Of a stretch of DNA of 64,000 nt, positions 33,094-58,203 are shown piece after piece. The position numbers and the translations under genes were made by a program. This stretch comes from Neotamlana laminarinivorans (GTDB taxonomy: Bacteria > Bacteroidota > Bacteroidia > Flavobacteriales > Flavobacteriaceae): assembly GCF_020523925.1 (NCBI RefSeq), contig NZ_JAJAPW010000003.1:1-64000 (forward strand), in the 5' to 3' direction. The notes beneath the pieces were generated by a model. The model saw only the letters and a list, made by a program, of their open reading frames with translations, searched no databases and was not told where the DNA came from. Each line of letters begins with the position of its first letter. Position 1 is the first letter of the stretch.

Positions 33094-33208
33094 TAACACT
33101 GCCTTTAGCATTTTTATATTTATCCTGAACTTGTTTTTGGTACTTTGTTAATACCAGTGTACATTGTTCAATATAAAAAGAGGTTGCAATCAGTCAAATC
33201 TTTCCTCT
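33094..33208 (-). promoter_or_regulatory. SAM-II-type riboswitch upstream of metK
   Basis: On the minus strand, AGAGG (33204-33208) and CCTCT (33179-33183) form P1. The loop contains GATTTGACTGATTGCAA, closely matching the conserved GATTTAACCGTATTGCAA loop of SAM-II as I recall it. The second conserved block, TGCTAAAGGCAGT (about 33098-33110), matches the 3' pseudoknot strand, and ACTG in the loop can pair with its CAGT. Between the halves is an extra stem of 10 A-U pairs (33111-33120 with 33170-33179) capped by GAAC/GTTC, unlike the short linker of classical SAM-II. Identification rests on motif memory and pairing, not on a model search. Confidence 0.8.
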
Positions 33209-33221
33209 GTTATTTGTGGCG

Positions 33222-52363: not shown

Positions 52364-52391
52364 TATAAACAAATAGTTGGCAGATGTGCCC

Positions 52392-52514
52392 GCGTTAGGG
52401 ATTGAAGCGGCATCCTTTTTTATGTCAGTTCGAGTGTTTTGTGAAGCATGAGCAAAATGTATCGAGAACAAATAAAAAAGATATAGCGCAAAGCCCGACC
52501 CCTGTGGTAACGCC
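52392..52514. repeat. Dispersed palindromic element, copy A
   Basis: The element begins GCGTTAGGGATTGAAGCGGC and ends with TAACGCC, so its ends are inverted repeats (GCGTTA/TAACGC). It is nearly identical to copy B at 58079-58203. Internal T and A runs (CATCCTTTTTT and AAAAAAGATATAGCG) can also pair, so the whole unit can fold as one long hairpin. It lies between the Gfo/Idh/MocA and isomerase genes. Confidence 0.9.
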
Positions 52515-54769: not shown

Positions 54770-54799
54770 TTGCGCAATTCATATTTAGTTGTACATTTG
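54770..54799 (+). promoter_or_regulatory. Promoter of the arginine operon
   Basis: TTG at 54770-54772, a 19-nt spacer and TACATTTG at 54792-54799 match the Bacteroidota consensus fully and have the same spacing as the tRNA-Tyr promoter. Transcription should begin near 54806, leaving a leader of about 280 nt before the first gene. Confidence 0.8.
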
Positions 54800-54805
54800 C
54801 GACTC

Positions 54806-55086
54806 ATATTAACGAAAGGGGCATACGCCGACGATTTAGAGTTAATAGTAAAGATAGTTTATTCAGTGAAAACAGGAAACAACATATCTCTTATCTCTTT
54901 TGTTCTAGTAAATTTTACTAGAGCGGTTGTTGTGCGTTTTCCACATACACGCCCCTAGGGGCTATTCTGTTTAAGAAAGCATTCGCTGCTTTCAATTTTC
55001 GTTATTATTTATAGTAAAATTTTAAAAGTTAAAAGCTTTTATTTTCATTAACGTGCATTTTGCACCAGGTTTAATTATTACTGAAA
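54806..55086 (+). promoter_or_regulatory. Long structured leader RNA of the arginine operon with candidate Arg-containing leader peptide
   Basis: No ATG occurs in this stretch, but a GTG at 54866 opens a 30-codon frame ending at TAG 54956-54958 whose last part reads TRAVVVRFPHTRP, with three Arg codons. Inverted repeats overlap it: a 9-bp pair around 54904-54922 (TCTAGTAAA/TTTACTAGA), GGAAA..CAACA (54875-54885) with TGTTG..TTTCC (54929-54942), and GCCCCTAGGGGC at the stop. GGGGC at 54818-54822 could compete for GCCCC. A hairpin GAAAGC/GCTTTC (54975-54993) follows, with only a weak T-run. I infer arginine-responsive attenuation; a metabolite-binding RNA is an alternative. Confidence 0.5.
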
Positions 55087-55680
55087 ATGGAAACCGTATT
55101 GGACGTTGAAAAAAATATTATTATTGAAGAAGCCAAAGCCTATTGTGAGTTACAAGGCTTGCAGGTTGTATTCACGCACGACATTACTCATGCGCAGCTG
55201 CAAATTATTTCAGAAAGAACTAAAAATCAAGCAGCTATGTATCATGCTAACGTGGGTATGTTGTTAGATCGTTTAAAAAATGGTTGCTACCTTATAGTCA
55301 AAGATGGTGAAATTTTTGGTCATATCTTTGCGCACAAACACGTAGTTGGTAAATTTTCGGTTTACGAACGTTCTTCGCTTTGGGTTCACGAGAAATATCG
55401 TAATAATAATCTGGGTTTGTTGTTAATGGATTTATTAACAAAGCATTTTAATAAAAACTTTCTTATTTCAATTGCTCAAGGCGCAACAGTGCATCATAAT
55501 AATGAGTTGTTAGGAATGAAATATATAACTTTAAAAGATTTGTCTCCAGTTTTAATTGAGGTTTTAGAAAAGTTAGGAAAATTAAGAGATGAGCTTAAAT
55601 ATAAGTATTATGTTAATGCTTATTTTGAGTCTAAAATTGGTCAGTTTAATAAAATTCTTAAAACTAAAATAGTAGAGTAA
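55087..55680 (+). CDS. GNAT-family acyltransferase at the head of the arginine operon
   Basis: The 197-residue cytosolic protein has a GNAT core. The acyl-CoA binding region is around HEKYRNNNLGLLLMDLLTKHF (residues about 98-118), preceded by the strand block YLIVKDGEIFGHIFAHKHVVGKFSVYERSSLWV. As the first gene of an operon with argG, argC, argD, argF' and argB, it is the best candidate for the first step, N-acylation (acetyl or succinyl) of glutamate. No canonical ArgA or ArgJ is present in the window. A comparable GNAT gene heads arg clusters in other Bacteroidota. The acyl donor is not fixed by sequence. Confidence 0.8.
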   Translation: METVLDVEKNIIIEEAKAYCELQGLQVVFTHDITHAQLQIISERTKNQAAMYHANVGMLLDRLKNGCYLIVKDGEIFGHIFAHKHVVGKFSVYERSSLWVHEKYRNNNLGLLLMDLLTKHFNKNFLISIAQGATVHHNNELLGMKYITLKDLSPVLIEVLEKLGKLRDELKYKYYVNAYFESKIGQFNKILKTKIVE

Positions 55681-55766: not shown

Positions 55767-56942
55767 ATGAAAAAATTAGTAATAGCCTACAGTGGTGGTT
55801 TAGATACATCGTATTGTGCCGTAAGTCTATCAAAAGAATACGAAGTACATGCCGTTAGTGTTAATACTGGTGGTTTTACAACAGAAGAAGTTAATAAAAT
55901 TGAAGAAAACGCCTATAAAATGGGGGTTGCCACTTATAAAAATATTGATGCTGTACCAACATTTTATAACAAAGTGGTTAAGTATTTAATATTTGGTAAT
56001 GTGTTAAAAAATAATACTTATCCATTATCGGTAAGTGCAGAGCGAATTATTCAAGCTATCGAAATTATAGAATACGCAAAAAGTATAGATGCAGAATATA
56101 TTGCTCACGGTAGTACTGGAGCAGGAAACGATCAAGTGCGTTTCGATATGATTTTTCAAACTTTAGCGCCAGGTATAAAAATTATTACACCTATTAGAGA
56201 TAAAAAATTATCTAGACAAGAAGAAATTGAGTACTTAAAGGTAAATGGAATTGATATGTCTTGGGAAAAAGCCCAATACTCTGTTAATAAAGGGCTTTGG
56301 GGAACTAGTGTTGGTGGCGCAGAGACCTTAAATTCGGAAAAACCATTGCCAAGTGAAGCTTATCCGTCGCAATTACAAAAAGAAGGTGAAGAAAAAGTGA
56401 CTTTAACTTTTGAGAAAGGTGAATTTGTGGCTTTAAATGGTGAAGCAAACGCCCCCGAAGTAAATATTGAAAAATTAAATACTATAGCTTCAGCTTTTGC
56501 TATTGGTAGAGATATTCACGTAGGCGATACTATTGTAGGTATAAAAGGTCGCGTTGGTTTTGAAGCTGCTGCAGCTTTAATTACTGTAAAAGCACACCAT
56601 TTATTAGAAAAACATACGCTTACAAAATGGCAATTACAACATAAAGATTATTTGTCTAATTTTTATGGTATGCATTTACACGAAGGACAATATTTAGATC
56701 CTGTTATGCGAGATATGGAAGCTTTTTTACAAAGTAGCCAAGACAAGGTTTCAGGGGATGTAACGGTAACATTAAAGCCTTACCATTTTACATTAGATGG
56801 TATTAAATCTAAACACGATTTAATGAGTGCCAAATTTGGAAGCTACGGCGAAGAAAATAAAGGTTGGACTGCCGATGAAGCTAAAGGTTTTATTAAAATA
56901 GTTGGTAACCAAAATAAAATTTACCAACAGGTAAACTCGTAA
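55767..56942 (+). CDS. argG: Argininosuccinate synthase
   Basis: The 391-residue enzyme joins citrulline and aspartate with ATP. The N-terminal PP-loop is AYSGGLDTSYCAVSL (residues about 8-22). HGSTGAGNDQVRFDMIFQTLAPGIKIITPIRD carries the nucleotide/citrulline contacts, and LSREEI appears as LSRQEEIEYLKVNGI. It is the second gene of the operon; the gap to argC holds a small hairpin repeat. Confidence 0.96.
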   Translation: MKKLVIAYSGGLDTSYCAVSLSKEYEVHAVSVNTGGFTTEEVNKIEENAYKMGVATYKNIDAVPTFYNKVVKYLIFGNVLKNNTYPLSVSAERIIQAIEIIEYAKSIDAEYIAHGSTGAGNDQVRFDMIFQTLAPGIKIITPIRDKKLSRQEEIEYLKVNGIDMSWEKAQYSVNKGLWGTSVGGAETLNSEKPLPSEAYPSQLQKEGEEKVTLTFEKGEFVALNGEANAPEVNIEKLNTIASAFAIGRDIHVGDTIVGIKGRVGFEAAAALITVKAHHLLEKHTLTKWQLQHKDYLSNFYGMHLHEGQYLDPVMRDMEAFLQSSQDKVSGDVTVTLKPYHFTLDGIKSKHDLMSAKFGSYGEENKGWTADEAKGFIKIVGNQNKIYQQVNS

Positions 56943-58010: not shown

Positions 58011-58078
58011 GTATGTTGTTATGCTGAAGAAGCTTGTGCTGAACTTGTTTCTGTGTTTTAGTGTCACATAACAGTGGT

Positions 58079-58203
58079 GCGTTAGCGATTGCAGCGGCAT
58101 CCTTTTTTATGTCAGTTCGAGTGTTTTGTGAAGTATGAGCAAAATGTATCGAGAACCAATAAAAAAGATATAGCGGAAAGCGCGACCCCTTGTGGGTAAC
58201 GCC
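58079..58203. repeat. Dispersed palindromic element, copy B
   Basis: Begins GCGTTAGCGATTGCAGCGGC and ends GTAACGCC, with a central part nearly identical to copy A at 52392-52514 (GTTCGAGTG and TATCGAGAAC are shared). Differences are mostly single bases plus two one-base insertions near the right end. It lies between argC and proC. Confidence 0.9.

Follow-up and report, generated by a model that had tools for sequence, protein, structure and literature searches.

The window, a stretch of 64,000 nucleotides from Neotamlana laminarinivorans (family Flavobacteriaceae), contains on its forward strand an arginine operon with the gene order GNAT-argG-argC-proC-argD and onwards, in which the first gene encodes a GNAT-family acetyltransferase (55087..55680; Pfam PF00583) and is followed by argG, encoding argininosuccinate synthase (55767..56942; Pfam PF00764 and PF20979). 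Ahead of the operon, on the same strand, lies a promoter recognised by its sequence as the Bacteroidetes type, TTG-N19-TACATTTG (54770..54799, with TTG at 54770-54772 and TACATTTG at 54792-54799), at the place given for it in a first-pass annotation of this DNA, and transcription would be expected to start near 54804-54806. A TAnnTTTG-like -7 motif was present in all five aligned relatives, and in the relatives' alignment the sequence 5' of the promoter has diverged in congeners and other genera while the leader is conserved. As had been noted, there is no ATG from approximately 54803 to the GNAT start at 55087, and the GTG-started frame described within this leader was confirmed at 54866..54958 (forward strand) from the open frame and from homology. 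It comprises 30 codons, encoding VKTGNNISLISFVLVNFTRAVVVRFPHTRP before the stop and ending in VRFPHTRP, and includes three Arg codons (54920-54922, 54935-54937 and 54950-54952). Two matches to the Flavo-1 RNA (RF01705) were found in the window, at 52384-52504 and at 58066-58191, the latter within the arg operon in the argC/proC gap, along with a SAM-II riboswitch match on the reverse strand (33095-33213) scoring barely above the gathering score. No Rfam match above the gathering score was obtained for the leader region of the window or for nine relatives, and a search of the window region at E-values up to 10 returned only matches with E >= 1.2, none of them credible.

From the presumed transcription start to the start codon, the leader is near-identical in four genomes of the genus (the window and three congeners), and approximately 85 nt are almost unchanged in two further genera. 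A BLASTN search of 397 genomes of the family returned 14 full-length leaders and 5 loci sharing the first 58 nt only, all 19 of these strong loci lying upstream of GNAT-argG where enough sequence was present; at the 5 partial loci, the 5' element is followed by an ATG leader ending in RRFRRP or RFRRP plus 2-3 residues. This 5' element, UAACGAAAGG-[GGC N4 GCC]-GACGAUUUAGAG (54810..54841, forward strand), was defined from the BLASTN and pattern-scan loci and consists of a 3-bp GC mini-hairpin with a constant GGC/GCC stem and a freely variable 4-nt loop, often UACG or UUCG, set in a near-invariant frame. Scanning 84,980 genomes with the pattern AAGGGGCN5CCGACGATNTAGAG gave 97 places, 80 of which were retrieved: 78 were the element, with GNAT and argG as the downstream genes wherever the sequence sufficed, and two were chance matches (L092 and L113). 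The element is present at all 19 strong BLASTN loci and at the 78 scanned loci, a constancy partly imposed by the pattern used in the scan, and was found only ahead of the GNAT-argG operon. The sole new place in an order-level pattern search, L047, was a chance match within a bshB-like gene, and a reading of the element as an Arg-rich peptide gene (frame ...ERGSRRRFRV...) was rejected on finding an in-frame TAA in several homologues.

The leaders following the element were assigned to type A, that of the window (GTG start, VKTGNNISLISFVLV...VVRFPHTRP-stop), type B (ATG start, MKTANFIYSEVKVQSLN...RRFRRPLGV-stop) and type C (ATG start, METSVKTGNHISIISS...VVRFPVRRP-stop). In type C, the codon aligned to the window's GTG is an internal Val four codons past the ATG, so the frame read in the first-pass annotation is right and the GTG at 54866 is a plausible start. 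The GNAT gene separating the leader from argG exists in two types, approximately 33% identical, one at L066, L114, L117 and L118 and the other at L068, L072, L083, L102 and L126; type C leaders occur with either, so leader and GNAT gene do not strictly travel together. Because argG is preceded by two GNAT types, the window's GNAT was unsuitable as a family-wide probe and was dropped.

Among the 43 distinct homologues of types A and C, 40 have the frame open as far as codon 30; of the other two frames, one is closed in all 43 and one in 37, counts that are not independent since the compared sequences are related. At L102 the frame is shortened in phase by 12 nt, stopping four codons early and retaining VVRFPQNRP at its end, while at L120 and L125 it is broken. 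Near the end of the peptide only R24 (34/37), R29 and P30 (both 37/37) stand out: two homologues have Cys in place of R24, Lys mostly replaces R19, and F25 and P26 are substituted in some homologues. The pN/pS of the window clade, 0.83-0.99 (approximately 0.9), was not below its column-shuffled null (null fraction 0.37 to 0.68), and selection at the amino-acid level was therefore not demonstrable in this clade; over codons 22-30 it was 0.83, again not below the null, and the purifying selection expected of an arrest peptide of the SpeFL or TnaC type was not found there. Such a pattern fits a leader that is read as codons, with the non-Arg residues free to change, but is no proof of translation. 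When 299 Flavobacteriaceae genomes were scanned for exact copies of the codons of this peptide, matches came only from the genus itself, the criterion being too strict.

Beyond the window's relatives, the regions upstream of argG in 40 further genera contain leader frames that mostly end in RRP-stop, with endings such as PVRPFSRRRRP, MRRYFPRRP and VRRRFPRRP. Three to six Arg were counted among the last 12 codons of 37 of the 39 scored leaders, a count biased upwards by picking the most Arg-rich frame at each locus, while the common RRP-stop ending is independent of that choice. The penultimate Arg codon has a constant CG with a variable wobble position. Tandem Arg-rich leader ORFs were seen at L148, L151, L152, L155, L156 and L158, between approximately 340 and 70 nt ahead of GNAT; the first resembles MKNLKNKIRCTTPGLPVRNRRRCF-stop and begins a few nucleotides past a TAnnTTTG-like motif, so that it is perhaps nearly leaderless, and the second ends in RRP or in RRP plus a short tail. 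Family-wide, the stop codon lies inside a hairpin, CGCCC-GUAA-GGGUG, which in one case has been wholesale replaced by GCGCAC/GUGCGC. After a short spacer there is a second hairpin, with a tip matching AGGUGNGUCC with at most one mismatch in 39 of the 40 genera and with 36 distinct arm pairs among 68 distinct sequences; its arms pair over a mean of 5.9 bp, compared with 3.05 when the 3' arms were redealt among the sequences (maximum 3.9 in 1000 trials). Eight pairs were doubly changed in the model-fitted alignment, a number reached by 0 of 500 shuffles, although an alignment fitted to a structure leans towards it. The AGGUG within the AGGUGNGUCC tip (L145-L184) is complementary to the 16S anti-Shine-Dalgarno sequence, and the tip is lost in the window at 54975-54993. 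Pairing of AGGUG with the 5' arm of the stop hairpin was considered and rejected, as L168 has its stop hairpin replaced and its tip unchanged.

A covariance model, R1, combining the stop-codon hairpin with the covarying second hairpin and its near-invariant AGGUGNGUCC tip matched in 55 of 90 genera and in 54 of the 60 bearing argG; in these 54 it occurs once per genome, in the same orientation as argG and 593-893 nt ahead of it. The window, along with two members of its clade, is among the six that were not matched. On the window, R1 gave a weak score of 9.9 bits (E 1.1) at 54938-55006, the best in the 64 kb and in the right place, and on other relatives in the clade the E-values ranged from 0.0007 upwards, all such values being rough. 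Outside Flavobacteriaceae, R1 gave marginal scores only, with no argG or GNAT near any marginal locus that was fetched. Judged by sequence comparison, the window ORF is a divergent member of the Flavobacteriaceae Arg leader peptides that precede GNAT-argG, and the window copy is a derived sub-type: it has the added 5' element, uses a GTG start, contains fewer Arg codons and no longer has the AGGUG tip.

In the window, the 284-nt leader folds to -65.6 kcal/mol, compared with -50.9 kcal/mol for dinucleotide shuffles (z -3.2; 0/200). Of its hairpins, the first lies inside the ORF (54902..54924, forward strand), with GTTCTAGTA paired to TACTAGAGC and perfect 9-nt arms at 54904-54912 and 54914-54922, as first described; it is variable in sequence, and covariation supports it, with 97% of cells paired over 32 rows and five of nine pairs changed on both sides. 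The inverted repeat GCCCCTAGGGGC (54951-54962) does span the stop codon, as reported, but forms a 4-bp stem, GCCC/GGGC, because a 2-nt loop is impossible; the resulting hairpin, GCCC-CUAG-GGGC (54951..54962, forward strand), is made from the stop codon together with the final Arg and Pro codons, is paired in 90% of cells in the clade and has two of five pairs doubly changed. At the position of the family's AGGUGNGUCC hairpin, with its tip lost, is a 3' hairpin, GAAAGCA-UUCGC-UGCUUUC (54975..54993, forward strand), supported by covariation and lying where R1 weakly aligns, in which 92% of cells are paired and three of seven pairs are doubly changed. Finally, UUUCGUUA (54997..55004, forward strand) is complementary to 54810-54817 and could close a domain of approximately 190 nt; 97% of cells are paired and the pair probability is approximately 1 in most folds, but the helix lacks covariation support because it is nearly invariant. 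The competing GGGGC/GCCCC/GGGGC segments proposed in the first-pass annotation stand as complementarity, the 5' GGGGC being complementary to GCCCC in 159 of 160 cells without covariation, but as a mutually exclusive switch they are weakly supported: in the folding ensembles the 5' pairing has a probability of 0.23 in the window and approximately 0 in most of seven relatives, so that the 5' partner is not energetically favoured. The relatives retain the stems as well as the reading frame, the reverse of the loss that the first-pass annotation had set as a refutation of its reading.

The lack of a classical strong T-run terminator was also confirmed, yet stop hairpins with U-rich sequence after them are far more frequent than chance would give. 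Of 38 genera, 20 show a terminator-like arrangement, nearly always this combination of stop hairpin and U-rich sequence, where 1.6 would be expected; a terminator-like hairpin is also present in 14 of 31 members of the window clade (1.8 expected). The stop hairpin is thus terminator-like in about half of the sequences, but the U-tract after it is interrupted, and the output may for this reason be weak intrinsic termination, Rho or decay. In predicted folds, a simulated ribosome at R29 or at the stop codon abolishes the stop hairpin, while one at R24 does not.

These features, a conserved short ORF between promoter and first gene, enrichment in Arg codons across the family and a hairpin predicted to depend on ribosome position, are those of an attenuator, and we consider it fairly likely that the leader is a cis-acting regulator of the arginine operon in which Arg codons read by the ribosome are coupled to RNA hairpins, with the stop-codon hairpin probably the switch of a translation-coupled arginine control. 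Under this model, a shortage of charged tRNA-Arg would stall the ribosome at the final Arg codons; because these make up the 5' arm of the stop hairpin, that hairpin could not form and expression of GNAT-argG-argC-proC-argD and the following genes would continue. When arginine is plentiful, the ribosome would finish and leave, the GC-rich stop hairpin, which a U-rich stretch follows, would form, and expression would fall. We infer that arginine is the signal and stalling the sensor, and likewise which way the control runs and what the output step is, whether termination, Rho access, RNA decay or an effect on translation; as the hairpin would be prevented even by a ribosome that has reached the stop codon, the direction would depend on the timing of its release. 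The near-invariant 5' element and the AGGUGNGUCC hairpin are left unexplained by a leader-peptide model, which counts against it, as do the pN/pS of the window clade, the substitutions at R24 and R19, the two broken frames and the interrupted U-rich stretches in place of a canonical strong U-run terminator. Of the two options originally offered for this leader, an Arg-containing peptide or a structured RNA, both the peptide and the stems are borne out by homologous frames and covarying hairpins in relatives. As could not be seen from a single sequence, this copy derives from an element that occurs across the family and elsewhere has many more Arg codons.

The foremost variant of this explanation is that translation of the leader gates the access of Rho or RNase, with the stop hairpin merely a barrier or stabiliser, as for Salmonella speF orf34, a precedent involving two Arg codons, Rho and RNase G (PMC6386406). 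The missing strong U-run agrees with it, as does a C- and A-rich unstructured stretch past the second hairpin in several genera, but the excess of stop hairpins followed by U-rich sequence does not, and we regard it as possible though doubtful. A bolder proposal, which we think unlikely, is that an unlisted family-wide RNA element replaces ArgR in Flavobacteriaceae, with the Arg-Pro-stop codons forming the switch hairpin and the next hairpin presenting a Shine-Dalgarno-like AGGUG in its AGGUGNGUCC tip, perhaps capturing the ribosome where Shine-Dalgarno pairing is seldom used. The frame could instead be incidental in the window clade, with the 5' element, stems and possible closing helix making up a riboswitch or protein-binding leader. 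The 85-nt 5' part being near-invariant even at synonymous sites, the covarying hairpins and possible closing helix, the pN/pS near 1 and the strong fold z-score would all suit such a domain, but a frame held open to codon 30, shortened in phase at L102 and homologous to Arg-rich leaders across the family, together with the lack of an Rfam match, makes it improbable; nor is a ligand-binding RNA supported as the main idea, given that the family-wide constants are the Arg codons and the stop-codon hairpin. Arrest of the ribosome at the stop codon by RFPxxRP with free arginine or ornithine bound, the arrested ribosome then remodelling the RNA as for SpeFL, TnaC or the fungal arginine attenuator peptide, would account for RP-stop and R24 persisting where few Arg codons are left, in a P-stop and R-P context similar to that of arrest peptides, but is quite improbable given no purifying selection on residues other than R and P, substitutions at F25 and P26, and runs of Arg in sister lineages like those of codon-based attenuators.

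Arginine operons are the textbook case of a DNA-binding repressor, ArgR. The ArgR C-terminal domain (PF02863) was absent from all 40 genomes searched (the window's own and 39 relatives) and present in 8 of 14 controls, leaving room for RNA-based control. If the translation-coupled model is true, a compact element uniting sensor codons, stop codon and hairpin would show how the family regulates arginine without ArgR, and a comparative series of many-Arg, tandem and Arg-depleted leaders, the window's being Arg-depleted, is at hand. The fungal arg-2/CPA1 arginine attenuator peptide, which is eukaryotic and stalls at the stop codon under high arginine, is alike by description, being a peptide encoded upstream of a gene for arginine biosynthesis and controlling it. 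A partial survey of the literature found no bacterial arg operon of the biosynthetic kind described as preceded by an arginine leader, which is weak evidence of novelty. Leader-peptide clues and attenuation upstream of amino acid operons have been described in Flavobacterium psychrophilum, of the same family and with the same kind of proposed control, with no arginine leader named in the parts of the main text consulted (PMC9723704). In Salmonella, speF orf34 contains two consecutive Arg codons, and its translation state steers RNA fold, decay and downstream expression (PMC6386406); the likeness is a leader ORF with Arg codons whose translation state matters, while speF encodes an inducible ornithine decarboxylase for polyamine synthesis rather than part of an arginine-making operon, and no sequence relation was seen. 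The his, trp, leu and thr attenuators share with the present leader a short peptide rich in codons for the product, upstream of the pathway operon, and alternative or ribosome-sensitive hairpins. Here, by contrast, the amino acid is arginine, the stop codon lies within a hairpin of the last Arg-Pro codons, a canonical terminator hairpin with a U-run is lacking, there is an extra AGGUGNGUCC hairpin, and the host belongs to a family of the Bacteroidota.
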